Positions 8,637 to 39,889 of a stretch of DNA of 49,116 nt are shown here, piece by piece (the stretch's first letter is position 1; the number at the start of each line of letters is the position of its first letter). Both the position numbers and the translations under genes were made by a program. The notes under the pieces were generated by a model. The model was not told the DNA's origin, ran no database searches, and saw only the letters and a list, made by a program, of their open reading frames with translations. The DNA lies in NCBI GenBank assembly GCA_903882905.1, contig CAIRYW010000004.1:1-49116 (forward strand), given 5' to 3'. This DNA comes from an uncultured bacterium (GTDB lineage: Bacteria > Patescibacteriota > Minisyncoccia > Phycocordibacterales > CAIRYW01).

Positions 8637-8702
8637 GATAATTGTTTACCATGCAGGATAACGACTTGGCACTATAATATCATTTATTGTTAATATAAGA
8701 AA

Positions 8703-9092
8703 ATGTATATGGAAAACGGAGGACAAAAGCTTGGATATAGAGGTAATTACGGTCTTGAATTAGTCATAGATCTAAAAAATTGTGATCTTTCGGATTTATC
8801 AAATGAAAAATTAAGAAAATTTTTTGTTGAATTATGTAATCGTGTTGACATGGTAAGACACGGTGACCCTATGTTTTGGGAAGATCATTCCGACATACCA
8901 CACTTAAATGGGATTTCCGCAATTCAATTTATCGAAACAAGTAATGTTGTATGCCACGCATTACCACTTCTCAAAGCTGTTTATTTAAACCTTTTCTCTT
9001 GTAAGGAATTTAATCCCGATGATACTTTGAAATTTTGTATGGAATTTTGGAAGGCCTCTTCAGAAAATCATTCTGTTGTAGTTAGAGTGTAA
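8703..9092 (+). CDS. Hypothetical protein
   Basis: 129 aa ORF; TATAAT at 8673-8678 upstream; no recognised domain. Confidence 0.6.
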   Translation: MYMENGGQKLGYRGNYGLELVIDLKNCDLSDLSNEKLRKFFVELCNRVDMVRHGDPMFWEDHSDIPHLNGISAIQFIETSNVVCHALPLLKAVYLNLFSCKEFNPDDTLKFCMEFWKASSENHSVVVRV

Positions 9093-9101
9093 TAGAAAAT
9101 A

Positions 9102-9626
9102 ATGAAAAAAAACAAAATATCCTCTGCAATGCTGCCAGAGACAGAAATACTTATAGTTAAGAAGAGTGATTGTCTCAGAGACCAACTTGGTGTTTTTACA
9201 AAAGAAGCTTTTAAAAAAAATCAGATACTCTTTTTAGTAAAAGGGCCAATTAAATCAAAACCTTCCATATATTCTTTCTCAATCAATTTGAACAAACATA
9301 TTGAACCGAAAATAGAAAGTGGCGATTTTGATTTCGGACACTATATGAACCATTCATGTAATCCAAACGCCAAAGTTAAAATCATCGACAAAGCTGACAA
9401 AATCCCTTATATAGAAGTATTAGCCAGAAGAAATATTAAAAAAAATGAGGAGTTAACATTTGATTATGCATCACTTGAATATGCCACGGTCGCTAATTCT
9501 ATATGTAAGTGCAATGCAAAAAACTGTCGCAGAACTATTCATGGTTTCAAAGATTTGCCAAAAAGTATTGTAAAAAAATATCAAAAAGAGGATATGATCT
9601 CAAAATATCTTTTAAGTATAAAGTAA
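9102..9626 (+). CDS. SET-domain protein with post-SET-like cysteines
   Basis: 174 aa; MNHSCNPNAKVK (NHSCxPN), EVLARRNIKKNEELTFDYA, then CKCNAKNCRRTIHGF. Confidence 0.87.
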   Translation: MKKNKISSAMLPETEILIVKKSDCLRDQLGVFTKEAFKKNQILFLVKGPIKSKPSIYSFSINLNKHIEPKIESGDFDFGHYMNHSCNPNAKVKIIDKADKIPYIEVLARRNIKKNEELTFDYASLEYATVANSICKCNAKNCRRTIHGFKDLPKSIVKKYQKEDMISKYLLSIK

Positions 9627-9643
9627 TCCCTCCTGATCTATAT

Positions 9644-10561
9644 TTATTTCATAAAGAGTAAATACGTACCAATCCCCGTCACGAAAATAGCAATAATCTT
9701 TGGCCACAGGTGTTTTGCTCGTATTTTTTCAGTCATTATTTTTGGAAAGAATATGGTAAATATTATGCCAATAATCAAAACGAAAATTGGTTGGAAGGAT
9801 TGTGTCAGTAGGACAAGCGCTACTGGAGCAAGAAGAAATGCGAAGGAGAAAGCAAAATTCCCTGTCATGTATAAAATCTCAGTCATTATATTTAGGGCCA
9901 TAATCGATTTGGAATTATTTTTTAGTGCCTGGATAAAATGTTTGCGATAAGAACTTATGAAAACAAATATAAATATTCCTATTATTGTGATTGCAACATG
10001 TTCCCAAAAAAATGATCTTAAAAAATCTTCTTTAAGGGCAACTGCCTTGAATATTACTCCCTCTGTTGCCCAAAATAGTGATGCTCCAAGCATTGGGAGA
10101 ATCGTATTTTTTTTAAGCTTGAATTTATTGTCCTCATCTATCTCAAAAGAGATAATCGCTGTCCCAAATATAACTAATGCCATGGCAATGAGTTGTATTT
10201 TTGTCAGTACTTCTCCAAGAATAAAATATCCGAGTATATAACCAAATACAGGCATCAATTGATAGAAAACAACAACAACTGATGCTTCGTCGTTATTAAG
10301 AGCAATAAAATAGCAAACTAAAACTAACACATCCAATATTCCAACTATCCCAAGAATAAGAATCGTTGGTGCGCTGGCACTAATGACTGTAGGATCTGCC
10401 CAAAATATAAAAGGTAAGGCAACTATTGATAAAAGAGATGAAAAAAGCAGAAGTGTACCCACCCCACCTTGCTTAAAGTATTTTTCCAGAACAATTTTAT
10501 CTATGTGATTCGTTATCGCATATAGAAACGGACCAATCAAAGCTATGAAAAACCAGTTCAT
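9644..10561 (-). CDS. EamA/DMT family transporter
   Basis: 305 aa, about 10 TM segments, two EamA-like repeats. Confidence 0.85.
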   Translation of the reverse strand: MNWFFIALIGPFLYAITNHIDKIVLEKYFKQGGVGTLLLFSSLLSIVALPFIFWADPTVISASAPTILILGIVGILDVLVLVCYFIALNNDEASVVVVFYQLMPVFGYILGYFILGEVLTKIQLIAMALVIFGTAIISFEIDEDNKFKLKKNTILPMLGASLFWATEGVIFKAVALKEDFLRSFFWEHVAITIIGIFIFVFISSYRKHFIQALKNNSKSIMALNIMTEILYMTGNFAFSFAFLLAPVALVLLTQSFQPIFVLIIGIIFTIFFPKIMTEKIRAKHLWPKIIAIFVTGIGTYLLFMK

Positions 10562-10597
10562 TGTGAGTTTATTTTAGCATTATTTATTATAAAAAAA

Positions 10598-11074
10598 TTA
10601 TTTTTCGTCAATATAAGCGAAGGTTTTGTTTTTAATTGCTTGCATACACTTAGGTATAGAGTTTTGTAGGCCTGGTGACAACATTGGAATAGCTTCGTTT
10701 GGAGATTTGAAAGTATACTCGTCTAACTCTTCTATTTGTAACTTTATCTGTGAAATTTGTTCTGCGATTAATATTCCGCCAAAAAAAATAAATTTAAGTG
10801 AGTCAAAATAAAATCCTTTTTTAGGTGAATGATACACTCCAACTAACTGCATTTCAGAAATATCCAGTCCGATTTCTTCTTTTGTCTCTCTGATAGCGCA
10901 TTCTAATGGAGATTCTCCTTCGTCTGTAGATCCACCTGGAACAAGCCATCCCTCTTTATAATTAGGCTTCAAGATAAGTAGTTCTCCCACAGTATTAAAA
11001 AATAAAACTGCAGAACCAACTTGTTTTTTTGGAAGCATTTTATGGTATTCCTCGTCAGTAAATTTTTTAGGCAT
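10598..11074 (-). CDS. Nudix hydrolase
   Basis: 158 aa; Nudix box GGSTDEGESPLECAIRETKEEIGL. Confidence 0.92.
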   Translation of the reverse strand: MPKKFTDEEYHKMLPKKQVGSAVLFFNTVGELLILKPNYKEGWLVPGGSTDEGESPLECAIRETKEEIGLDISEMQLVGVYHSPKKGFYFDSLKFIFFGGILIAEQISQIKLQIEELDEYTFKSPNEAIPMLSPGLQNSIPKCMQAIKNKTFAYIDEK

Positions 11075-34836: not shown

Positions 34837-37800
34837 TTACTCTTTGACTACAAAATTTACTATTCTGTTTTTGACGGCAATTGTTTTAATAATTTCTTTT
34901 CCCACTAATCTCTCTGAAATTGATCCAAAACTTTTTGCTTTTTCTATCATTTCATCCTCTGAAGTGTCTTTCGGAAGCATTATAACTTCCCTAGCCTTCC
35001 CGTTTATTTGAATTGCAATCGAAACATCTTCAATTAGGAACTTTTCATCAACTGTCGGCCATTTTGAAAGGAAAATTGATTTTTTATTACCAATATTATT
35101 CCATAATTCTTCTGTAATATGAGGAGCTAGTGGAGCGAGAATCTGCAAAAATTTCTCAAAAGATTTTTTTGTGATTTTTTTGTTTTCGTATATAGAATTT
35201 AAGCAAATCATCAAAGCTGAAACAACTGTATTAAATGCTGAGTTTTCAATATCCTCACTAACTTTTTTTACAGCTTTATTTATTGCTGTTGTTACTTCTC
35301 GTGGCTCGTCTTTGCTCAGAAAATCTGTGAGTGCGAAAACTCTTTCAATAAATCTTCTTGTGCCAATGATACCTTTATCATTCCATGCAATTTGGTTGCC
35401 GTGGGGCCCCAAAAAAGCCATATAAAGACGCATTGTATCCACCCCATATACTTTTACTATGTCATCTGGATTAATCACATTTCCTCTGCTCTTAGACATC
35501 TTTTCTCCATCTGGTCCTAAAATAATTCCGTGCGGAACTCTTTTGACGTAAGGTTCTTTAGTCGTAACTAAACCTCGGTCAAATAAAAATTGATTCCAGA
35601 AACGAGAATAAAGTAAATGAAGTGTTGTGTGCTCCATTCCTCCAAAATACAAATCGACTGGCGTCCAATATTTTAATTTTTTCTTGTCTGCAAATTCTTT
35701 TGTATTTTTTGGATCACAATACCTAAGCCAATACCAACTACTTCCTGCCCACTGAGGCATGGTATTTGTTTCTCTTTTTGCAATTCCAGGTTCAAAAATT
35801 TTGTGAATATCTGTGAACTTTTTCAGTATTTGATTTTCAGACAAAACCTCTTTGAGTTTTTCTTCGCCTTGATAGCCCCAAGAACAGCCAACCAACTTTC
35901 TTTTATCAAGTGTGTTTTCTAGTTCATAAACATCTGCTTGAGTGTCTGTAAAATAATAAACATTTTTAATATCGGTTTTCCATGCTTTACAGATAGTTTT
36001 AATTTTTTCTACTTTTGAATGATGATGATTTCCAGCAAGAAAATGCGTGTATTTAAGTTTTGATTTTTTTAATGGTCCTTTTGAATATAAGTCGTAGCCA
36101 GAGCTAACAACAGCAATTTTTGTATTTTTTATTTTATTTATCTCTTTAATAAAATCATCAAAAAGATTGTATTTAAGTTTTGTCATTGCCTCTGCATAAC
36201 CAATACCAAAATTGTGGTATTCTTTTTTACCTTTTTCATCCAATTCATTTGCGTGCCAAGGAGTTGCACTAAAATATTCGTGGAGATTTTTGTGGGATTC
36301 CTCCATATCTTTTGAATTTCCCATATCTACTCTAGCCTGAAGACTTTGTTTGTATGTGTCACCAAGTACTCCATCAAAATCAAAAATTAAATATTTAGTT
36401 TTATTTTTTTCTACTTCGCAATTCGGACATTTTGTGTTGACCCATTTTTCTATTCCAGCAAGCGGAGATTCACCTGTACCTGTCGGCTCATAATTTTTTA
36501 CTTTTGGAAGTACAACTGGCAAATCTTTATCAGGCACAGGAACAACTCCACATTTTTCGCAGTGAATTACAGGAATTGGTTCTCCCCAATATCTTTGACG
36601 AGAAAATACCCAATCGCGAAGTTTGTATTTTGTGACTAGTTTTCCTCCCACAAATTCTGTAATTTTTTTCTTTGCGTCTTCTGATGTGAGTCCTGAAAAT
36701 TTATCTGAATTAATCAAAATTCCTTCTTCACCAAAAAGTTCTTCTGTATTATTTTGAGCGCGCAAAATAAATTCATGTTCAGATTTGGTTCCACCTTTTT
36801 TTATTAGTTCAATTCCTTCATTGATTGGAAACCATTCGCTTGATTTTATGTGCCCATCACTAGCTTCAATTTTTTGATCTTCATCAACCTCTACAGCATA
36901 AGCTTTCACTCTTCTCGCTCGATTTATATCATCCTTTGGGTAAATTGATTCTGACGATCCAAGATACGTTTTAACTGTGCCGTTTTGGTATCCTGTTTCT
37001 TCCTCAACTTCTCGGATTACAGTGTCGTAGTCAGTCTCATTCTCTTCATATTTTCCTCCAGGTAGAGTGTAATAACCTTCGTTAACCAATAAAATTTTTC
37101 CATTTTTTATTATTACAGCTTTTACAACATCTCTTCTGTTTAAATCTGGAAGAGGTTTGCCGATTAGTCTTATTACTACTTCTTTTCGTTCTAAATTAAA
37201 TTTCTTTGCAAAGGCAAAATCACGCTCGTCGTGTGCGGGAACAGCCATAATTGCCCCTGTTCCATATGAACCCAAAACATAATCGGCTATCCAAATAGGA
37301 ATTTCTTCATTGTTAGCAGGATTGATAGCTTTTACGCCTTTTATTTCAATTCCTGTTTTTTCTTTCCCTTCAGCAGTTCTGTCTATGTCAGATTTATTTT
37401 TTGTATCTTCAATATATTTTTCTGTCTCTTTTTTATTGTCTATGTTCAATCGGGAAATTAGTGGATGCTCAGGTGCAAGAACCAAATAAGTTGCACCAAA
37501 AATTGTATCAGGTCTTGTAGTGAAGACTTTTATTTTTTTTTTCTCTAAACTCGCACCTCGCACCTCAAAACTTATCTCCGCTCCTTCAGATTTACCAATC
37601 CAATTTTCTTGTTGAAGCTTTATTGCTTCTGGCCACTCTGGAAGATATTTTAGACCGTCTAAAAGTTTTTCTGCATAGTCAGTGATCTTTAGATACCACT
37701 GTCTTAATTCTTTTTTCTCAACAATTGCTCCACATCTTTCACATTTACCATCTATTACCTCTTCGTTTGCTAATCCTGTCTTGTCCACTGGGCACCAATT

Positions 37801-38268
37801 AATCAATCCAGTCTTTTCATATGCAAGTCCAGCTTTTAAAAATTCTAAAAATATTTTTTGGGTCCATTTGTAATATTTTGGGTCTGTTGTATTTATTTCT
37901 CGTGACCAGTCAAAACCAATTCCCCAACCTTGAAGTTGTTTTTTTGCATTCGCTACATTTTTCTTAGTAGAAATTTCTGGGTGAACTTTGTTTTTGATAG
38001 CAAAGTTTTCTGCAGGTAATCCGAAAGCATCCCATCCAATAGGATAGACAACATTTTTTCCATTCATTTTGTGATACTTAGAAATAATGTCCCCAGCTGT
38101 ATATGGGCGAAGATGCCCCATATGGAGTCCTGTTCCTGATGGATATGGAAATTCAACCAAGACAAATTTTTTCTCTTCCTTTGCATTGTCCTTAGCAACA
38201 AAAACTTTTTTTGTTAACCAGTGTTTTTGCCACTTAGCTTCTATTTTTTTTGGATTATATTTACTCAT
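34837..38268 (-). CDS. leuS: Leucyl-tRNA synthetase with embedded Nudix and HAD-like domains
   Basis: 1143 aa; HMGH, AFGLPAENFA, TRPDTIFGATYLVLAPEH, ETNTMPQWAGSSWYWLRY, KMSKSRGNVINPDD; insertions described in findings. Confidence 0.96.
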   Translation of the reverse strand: MSKYNPKKIEAKWQKHWLTKKVFVAKDNAKEEKKFVLVEFPYPSGTGLHMGHLRPYTAGDIISKYHKMNGKNVVYPIGWDAFGLPAENFAIKNKVHPEISTKKNVANAKKQLQGWGIGFDWSREINTTDPKYYKWTQKIFLEFLKAGLAYEKTGLINWCPVDKTGLANEEVIDGKCERCGAIVEKKELRQWYLKITDYAEKLLDGLKYLPEWPEAIKLQQENWIGKSEGAEISFEVRGASLEKKKIKVFTTRPDTIFGATYLVLAPEHPLISRLNIDNKKETEKYIEDTKNKSDIDRTAEGKEKTGIEIKGVKAINPANNEEIPIWIADYVLGSYGTGAIMAVPAHDERDFAFAKKFNLERKEVVIRLIGKPLPDLNRRDVVKAVIIKNGKILLVNEGYYTLPGGKYEENETDYDTVIREVEEETGYQNGTVKTYLGSSESIYPKDDINRARRVKAYAVEVDEDQKIEASDGHIKSSEWFPINEGIELIKKGGTKSEHEFILRAQNNTEELFGEEGILINSDKFSGLTSEDAKKKITEFVGGKLVTKYKLRDWVFSRQRYWGEPIPVIHCEKCGVVPVPDKDLPVVLPKVKNYEPTGTGESPLAGIEKWVNTKCPNCEVEKNKTKYLIFDFDGVLGDTYKQSLQARVDMGNSKDMEESHKNLHEYFSATPWHANELDEKGKKEYHNFGIGYAEAMTKLKYNLFDDFIKEINKIKNTKIAVVSSGYDLYSKGPLKKSKLKYTHFLAGNHHHSKVEKIKTICKAWKTDIKNVYYFTDTQADVYELENTLDKRKLVGCSWGYQGEEKLKEVLSENQILKKFTDIHKIFEPGIAKRETNTMPQWAGSSWYWLRYCDPKNTKEFADKKKLKYWTPVDLYFGGMEHTTLHLLYSRFWNQFLFDRGLVTTKEPYVKRVPHGIILGPDGEKMSKSRGNVINPDDIVKVYGVDTMRLYMAFLGPHGNQIAWNDKGIIGTRRFIERVFALTDFLSKDEPREVTTAINKAVKKVSEDIENSAFNTVVSALMICLNSIYENKKITKKSFEKFLQILAPLAPHITEELWNNIGNKKSIFLSKWPTVDEKFLIEDVSIAIQINGKAREVIMLPKDTSEDEMIEKAKSFGSISERLVGKEIIKTIAVKNRIVNFVVKE

Positions 38269-38961: not shown

Positions 38962-39417
38962 TTAAAATAGAGGGTCCTTGCAAATGGGACAAACCCGATG
39001 ATTTGGTTCCTCAAGAATTACAATCCCGCAGGTATTTACGTTGCATCTATGACAATGCCTCGCAATGGGACTAAGATCTGGTTCAGATTGGATCTCAGAC
39101 CCCACAAACGCATCAATTAATGGTCGATATATCTGCAATACCATCACAGGAGGAAGTTCAGTTGTTTCCGCAAACTCTATCAGCTTTTTGAGCAGATCTC
39201 CTTCCCTGGCCCTGTCTCGAAAGGGCAAACCATTCTCCTTTTTGTGTGCGACGACGATTTTGTTGATAATTTCGTATCGTAAACTCAGGAGTTTGATAAT
39301 TTCCCTATCGATTCTGTCAATGCAACTTCTCGCAATGACTAAGGGGTTCTCTCCTTGATTAATCCTCCCCCACGCCCATGCAAGTAGGTCTTCAAACCGT
39401 ACGTTGAAAATGTTCAT
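38962..39417 (-). CDS. AroQ-type chorismate mutase with C-terminal zinc ribbon
   Basis: 151 aa; CIDRIDREIIKLLSLRYEIINKIVVAHKKENGLPFRDRAREGDLLKKL matches the AroQ core; CHRC...CPIC tail. Confidence 0.8.
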   Translation of the reverse strand: MNIFNVRFEDLLAWAWGRINQGENPLVIARSCIDRIDREIIKLLSLRYEIINKIVVAHKKENGLPFRDRAREGDLLKKLIEFAETTELPPVMVLQIYRPLIDAFVGSEIQSEPDLSPIARHCHRCNVNTCGIVILEEPNHRVCPICKDPLF

Positions 39418-39454: not shown

Positions 39455-39889
39455 TTAAATTCTAGTGGTGTACGTATTTGTTAAAAAATCACGTAATTCG
39501 AAAAGTGGTTTTTTGTCTTCAGAGGTTATTTTTGCTTCGTAGGTAATTTCTTCTATTGTGAAAAATTTTCCGCCTTGACCTTCATGAGCTTTTATCAGTT
39601 TTTCAAAGTCATTATTGACCTTCGTAAAGAAAATAAATTTTTCATTTGACATTGAATCATAATAAATTCCAAGGAATTGAAACGGATCTGGTTTCCAATT
39701 TAGCTCTTCTTGAATCTCTCGAATTAATGTCTGTTCAGGTGTTTCGTTTCCTTCTATGCCACCTCCCCAAAAACTCCAATAATCTGGGTATTGTGTAGCA
39801 GTTTTTGATCTGTGAGATAGATAAAATTCAAAATGATTATTAAAGAAACGATAAGGAATAAAGTTTGCTTTTCGTTTAATAATTTGCAT
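39455..39889 (-). CDS. Nudix hydrolase
   Basis: 144 aa; GGGIEGNETPEQTLIREIQEELNW. Confidence 0.9.
   Translation of the reverse strand: MQIIKRKANFIPYRFFNNHFEFYLSHRSKTATQYPDYWSFWGGGIEGNETPEQTLIREIQEELNWKPDPFQFLGIYYDSMSNEKFIFFTKVNNDFEKLIKAHEGQGGKFFTIEEITYEAKITSEDKKPLFELRDFLTNTYTTRI

Follow-up and report, generated by a model that had tools for sequence, protein, structure and literature searches.

A Patescibacteria leucyl-tRNA synthetase with embedded Nudix and putative HAD phosphatase domains

The stretch of DNA analyzed here, referred to as the window, comprises 49,116 nucleotides of contig CAIRYW010000004.1 and belongs to the draft genome (746 kb, 29 contigs) of an uncultured bacterium of the Patescibacteria. 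Its minus strand contains leuS, the gene of leucyl-tRNA synthetase (LeuRS), as a single open reading frame that runs from ATG to stop with no internal stop codon. Two enzyme domains are embedded in the product. The features of the locus are given below in window coordinates, in the order of the protein chain; residue numbers refer to LeuRS.

34837..38268, minus strand: leuS, LeuRS with two embedded enzyme domains, 1143 aa (TIGR00396, 985 bits; AF2 fold)
38113..38148, minus strand: HIGH-type signature PYPSGTGLHMGH (sequence)
37495..37524, minus strand: Thr-rich segment FTTRPDTIFG of the editing domain (aligned to Thermus thermophilus LeuRS)
37219..37236, minus strand: AHDERD motif of the editing domain, immediately ahead of the Nudix insert (alignment)
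36814..37134, minus strand: Nudix domain, residues 379-485, at site S2, where the CP1 editing region ends (Pfam NUDIX, E 1.5e-15)
36988..37059, minus strand: intact Nudix box GGKYEENETDYDTVIREVEEETGY, pattern Gx5Ex7REUxEExGU, residues 404-427 (sequence)
36547..36564, minus strand: first half of the zinc ribbon, HCEKCG (alignment)
36418..36432, minus strand: second half of the zinc ribbon, KCPNC, with the HAD insert starting right behind it (alignment)
35794..36402, minus strand: HAD phosphatase domain, residues about 623-825, at site S4 (Pfam HAD_2, AF2, Foldseek, relatives)
36367..36381, minus strand: HAD motif I, DFDGV, with nucleophile D630 and acid/base D632 (both Asp invariant in 27 aligned relatives)
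36097..36111, minus strand: HAD motif II, VVSSG, with S722 (sequence, alignment)
36001..36018, minus strand: HAD motif III, SKVEKI, with K752 (Lys invariant in 27 aligned relatives)
35932..35952, minus strand: HAD motif IV, FTDTQAD, with D775 and D779 (both Asp invariant in 27 aligned relatives)
35488..35502, minus strand: KMSKS signature (sequence)

Both profile and structure identify the core that hosts these domains as that of an ordinary bacterial LeuRS. The leuS_bact equivalog model TIGR00396 matches it over the full length with a score of 985 bits, exceeding the cut-off of 548, and the AF2 model of the complete chain (pLDDT 80.8) retrieves solved LeuRS structures as its top Foldseek matches, with target-normalised TM-scores of 0.70-0.82. 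The HIGH and KMSKS signatures, the Thr-rich and HDERD motifs of the editing domain and the zinc ribbon, all features of bacterial LeuRS, were found. The enzyme shares the catalytic, editing, zinc-ribbon and anticodon-binding core with the LeuRS of T. thermophilus (1h3n) and Escherichia coli (4aq7), but differs from them by the Nudix and HAD inserts and by a length of 1143 aa instead of about 800-880.

In a comparison with T. thermophilus LeuRS, the HAD domain falls between residues 487 and 489 of the latter, after the last CxxC cysteine, and the LeuRS sequence resumes at RETNTM. The empty site is seen in a genome of the same family (G003), which reads CPKCKGKAKRETNTM where the window has CPNCEVEKNKT, the HAD domain and EPGIAKRETNTM. 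Pfam HAD_2 matches residues 627-780 with an E value of 5e-7 in the whole protein and 2.4e-8 for the segment alone, both scoring above the gathering threshold. The AF2 model of the isolated domain (pLDDT 95.4, pTM 0.91) displays a confident HAD fold with a cap, and a Foldseek search of the PDB with this model revealed C1-capped HAD phosphatases with a probability of 1.00 and query TM-scores of 0.50-0.74 among the matches listed. These include phosphoglycolate phosphatase, beta-phosphoglucomutase and the Bacteroides thetaiotaomicron HAD pyrophosphatase (3qu2). The Rossmann-like core, the four motifs and the helical cap placed between motifs I and II are common to the domain and the C1-capped (subfamily I) HADs, PpaX among them. 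By contrast, it is only 9-19% identical to solved HAD structures (Foldseek list), it reaches no curated NCBIfam family, and it is embedded in or encoded beside a synthetase. A PDB sequence search with the single domain gave nothing useful, but a profile search of the PDB did give matches. Against NCBIfam, no family was found for the window domain at E 0.01, the PpaX equivalog included; the PpaX model NF009804 was weakly matched by 10 of 27 HAD relatives, the cut-off for that model not being reported. The sequence encodes a complete, C1-capped and apparently active HAD phosphatase domain. The initial annotation had described a complete HAD domain with all four motifs at the zinc ribbon (residues 619-828), in one polypeptide with LeuRS and a Nudix domain, and was correct in each respect, coordinates included. 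It can be regarded as practically certain that an intact LeuRS hosts two enzyme domains here, a C1-capped HAD at the tip of the zinc ribbon and a Nudix hydrolase at S2.

The division of the assembly into 29 contigs would allow for an artefact of assembly or gene calling, in which an unrelated HAD gene was joined to leuS in silico. The gene is one frame without a stop, with clean junctions, and the identical architecture is found in many independent assemblies. Because independent genomes have the same architecture, this explanation is rejected, its probability being close to nil.

The position of the inserts at the edges of the zinc ribbon and the editing domain, and a full-length model that is confident through the HAD junction, would be consistent with a structural or regulatory insert that shapes or stabilises LeuRS, or senses a ligand, and for which catalysis is irrelevant. 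Such a role is improbable, because all 27 aligned relatives keep the catalytic Asp and Lys unchanged, which is needless for a purely structural element, and because the domain is absent from the sister LeuRS of G003. Across the LeuRS inserts described below, none of the 15 HAD inserts checked has lost any of the four HAD motifs, 6/6 alpha/beta-hydrolase inserts keep GxSxG, and 42 of the 53 Nudix inserts have a strict Nudix box; since the catalytic motifs are intact, catalysis appears to be selected.

Searches for the HAD subfamily covered 398 genomes from the order, 384 from the phylum and the GTDB contig collection, and found it in Patescibacteria only; the contig collection was scanned with two short peptide patterns, so that divergent members elsewhere may be missed. 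The domain lies inside LeuRS in 17 genomes, so the architecture is not a one-off, and occupies three sites. Nine genomes have it at S4, the zinc ribbon (window, L151, L152, L153, L157, L159, L160, L163, L164), seven at S2, the end of the editing region (L154, L155, L156, L158, L161, L162, the contig of which begins at the insert, and L167), and one at S1, the entry of the editing domain (L203). G002, from the same family as the window, has the same leuS locus as L152, a contig of Candidatus Taylorbacteria, which places the window in the Patescibacteria (CPR). The ValRS of L204 (1362-4925, minus strand) contains a HAD of the same subfamily alongside one alpha/beta-hydrolase and one Nudix domain. 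In four genomes a free HAD gene lies beside leuS, at 11 bp in G103, at 108 bp in G232/L171, in L170, and at about 0.9 kb in L172. In L173, a free HAD gene adjoins a ThrRS gene (8662-11031, plus strand, 789 aa) that has a Nudix insert itself and lies directly downstream of the HAD gene and of a gene for a class II synthetase of the Asp/Asn/Lys type. The HAD represents a Patescibacteria subfamily associated with aminoacyl-tRNA synthetases, present in LeuRS and ValRS and beside leuS and a Nudix-carrying ThrRS, and the LeuRS-HAD architecture is neither unique nor fixed. Free relatives without a synthetase next door were found in L165, L166, L168 and L169; in two of these, an RNase J-like (beta-CASP) gene is located directly upstream of the HAD gene (L165:3459-4073 and L169:7992-8609, both plus strand).

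The inserts were surveyed in 85 LeuRS sequences, a few of which represent the same genome twice, counting inserts of >60 aa. All 84 inserts belong to four hydrolase families, namely Nudix, HAD, HAM1-like and alpha/beta-hydrolase (RBBP9-like), as assigned by local profiles for 83 of them and by eye for one (G045, Nudix); the sample was partly picked for having inserts, and the frequencies are thus not population estimates. The insertion sites concentrate at few hot spots, and HAM1-like or alpha/beta-hydrolase domains can fill the same sites as Nudix and HAD. The LeuRS of L157 (1722 aa) contains five embedded enzymes (three Nudix, one alpha/beta-hydrolase, one HAD), and that of L203 (4676-10063, plus strand, 1795 aa) contains a HAD, two HAM1-like, a Nudix and an aminoglycoside-nucleotidyltransferase-like domain, the last of which falls outside the four families. 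Among the matches listed (20 genomes), Nudix domains in frames of >600 aa all belong to LeuRS, except for one in ThrRS. A free HAM1-like gene is situated 30 bp upstream of leuS in G002.

The Nudix and HAD domains of the window had been proposed to form a coupled pair, in which a Nudix step precedes a phosphatase step. A direct Nudix-HAD tandem at one site does occur in three LeuRS (L158, L161, L167), and both domains are found together in others, but an obligate pairing is rejected: the LeuRS of G286/L156 has the HAD alone and that of G329/L154 has HAD and HAM1 without Nudix, many sampled LeuRS have Nudix without HAD, and the sites are shared with the other hydrolases. The coupling proposed initially thus finds partial support, each domain often being present without the other.

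In a tree of the HAD domains, those at S4 cluster together, and those at S2 constitute two groups, both of which also hold free genes adjoining leuS. On the LeuRS core tree (a quick tree with uneven support), the presence of HAD requires 16-17 changes, and the identities of HAD and core are weakly correlated (Spearman 0.28); between the window and L151, a member of Kerfeldbacteria, the HAD domains are 59% identical and the cores 48%. A single ancient insertion followed by purely vertical descent is therefore unsupported, and the scattering on the core tree and poorly correlated identities imply that the HAD was repeatedly gained, lost or transferred, processes that are indistinguishable from these data. 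A phage origin was also considered and rejected, as the viral contigs yielded no relative of the HAD. The LeuRS of L170 and L172 are 88% identical and the adjoining HADs (L170:7989-8615 and L172:3382-4002, both plus strand) only 55%, which suggests, from sequence comparison, that the HAD gene was replaced or is fast-changing.

This scattered distribution, the presence of the same HAD at three sites or as a free neighbouring gene, and the occupation of the same sites by several unrelated enzymes are what would be expected if the HAD were an ordinary metabolic phosphatase independent of LeuRS. The surface loops of the synthetase would then be permissive landing sites, and placement within an essential gene would ensure expression and retention in compact genomes. 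However, random cargo should be drawn from many protein families, whereas 84/84 inserts fall into four, and one HAD subfamily returns repeatedly to synthetases (LeuRS, ValRS, beside ThrRS). We regard an independent cargo as possible and somewhat unlikely.

The insertion of enzymes extends to another synthetase of the same genome. The IleRS of the window's genome (G000:C21, L178:895-4338, plus strand, 1147 aa) has a histidine phosphatase at residues 498-655 (PF00300, E 5.6e-27). PF00300 was found in frames of at least 1000 aa in 82 of 98 genomes of the order among the matches listed, and an IleRS with this insert was confirmed at 14 of 15 loci examined; the architecture is probably near-universal, in about 80% of the order.

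LeuRS is the target of agrocin 84/TM84, and self-immunity is conferred by a resistant LeuRS (PMC5059758). The embedded hydrolases might by analogy protect their host synthetase by degrading nucleotide-like inhibitors directed at it, for instance leucyl-adenylate analogues of the agrocin type, and their diversity and patchy, swapping distribution do resemble an arms race. Against such tethered detoxification, the histidine phosphatase of IleRS is near-universal and hence not patchy, these bacteria are not known to face such an inhibitor, and the PADLOC defence models gave no match for the HAD domain, which is rejected as a defence gene; the Nudix part weakly resembles one candidate family (PDC-S07, E 1.3e-9, partial model coverage). 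We consider detoxification quite improbable.

The reading that we tentatively prefer, at somewhat less than even probability, is that of a clean-up phosphatase associated with aminoacyl-tRNA synthetases. PPi arises in each aminoacylation cycle. The tethered HAD domain would be a catalytically active phosphatase and would clear away a phosphorylated compound that arises alongside amino-acid activation. The likeliest candidate substrates are PPi, or AMP/ApnA-type nucleotides in conjunction with Nudix domains or further pyrophosphohydrolases. The key element would be tethering, or mere co-production from an adjoining gene. No particular geometry relative to the leucylation site would be needed, because the site of the HAD moves, and a fixed channel to it is argued against by the changing sites and the existence of free neighbouring genes; the HAD domain is probably dispensable for leucylation. 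A clean-up enzyme near the synthetase is the simplest reading, as it explains the repeated company with synthetases, and the recurrence of the HAD in or beside several tRNA-loading enzymes hints at an extra side-job in protein synthesis. The fold and intact motifs, the restriction of the inserts to few hydrolase families, the histidine phosphatase of the genome's own IleRS and the confinement of Nudix domains in large frames to synthetases (matches listed for 20 genomes) support this, as do the B. thetaiotaomicron pyrophosphatase among the nearest folds and the weak PpaX matches in 10 relatives. It also counts in favour that Ap4A is made by aminoacyl-tRNA synthetases and degraded by Nudix enzymes (PMC10148737). 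The canonical inorganic pyrophosphatase (PF00719) is rarer in genomes with a HAD-LeuRS (5/16) than in the order (90/148; Fisher p 0.03, uncorrected for phylogeny), a weak association that is a lead and not proof. Replacement of the canonical enzyme by the HAD is rejected on account of this weakness and of the five HAD-LeuRS genomes that have both. The same five genomes speak against the clean-up reading as well, as do the HAD relatives that stand free, away from any synthetase seen, and the modeled fold and cap, which fit several functional classes equally. Because the alpha/beta-hydrolase inserts misfit a phosphate-only chemistry, an independent cargo stays close behind. In a broader version, which we find rather doubtful, the LeuRS, IleRS, ValRS and ThrRS of Patescibacteria, which in other bacteria possess editing activity, would serve as scaffolds for a definite set of built-in hydrolases (Nudix, HAD, HAM1-like, alpha/beta-hydrolase and, in IleRS, histidine phosphatase) that would share a hitherto undescribed step of clean-up or quality control in tRNA aminoacylation.

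Few enzymes are as conserved as synthetases, and LeuRS serves as a drug target. Up to five enzymes embedded in a single LeuRS, together with the return of one HAD subfamily at several sites and in several synthetases, would indicate either that aminoacylation has a chemical requirement so far overlooked (the on-site removal of PPi, ApnA or damaged nucleotides) or that reduced genomes store enzymes in an unusual manner. The component domains belong to known superfamilies. A search of the open-access literature on synthetases with extra domains revealed no description of their combination, of the hot spots or of the spread over LeuRS, IleRS, ValRS and ThrRS, in agreement with the initial annotation, which knew of no such LeuRS; subscription journals, preprints and domain-architecture databases were outside the scope of this search, and the latter may already list such architectures. 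In a survey of domain insertions from 2026, the editing domain of LeuRS is itself counted as an insertion, and Nudix is unmentioned (PMC13114784). A comparable curated case of a lineage-specific addition is NCBIfam NF040702, an IleRS with an N-acetyltransferase domain, which likewise adds an enzyme domain to a class I synthetase; the present set differs in comprising several hydrolase families at few LeuRS hot spots, in including IleRS, ValRS and ThrRS, and in its confinement to one radiation.

The embedded Nudix domain of the window shares the fold family (PF00293) and the intact box with other Nudix hydrolases and differs from them in its location within LeuRS. A PF00293 search revealed 11 Nudix domains in the 0.75-Mb genome, and a free Nudix hydrolase gene lies near leuS (window 39455-39889, minus strand). 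Between them, at 38962-39417 on the minus strand, is an open reading frame that, read by eye, is chorismate-mutase-like and has a C-terminal tail resembling a zinc knuckle.
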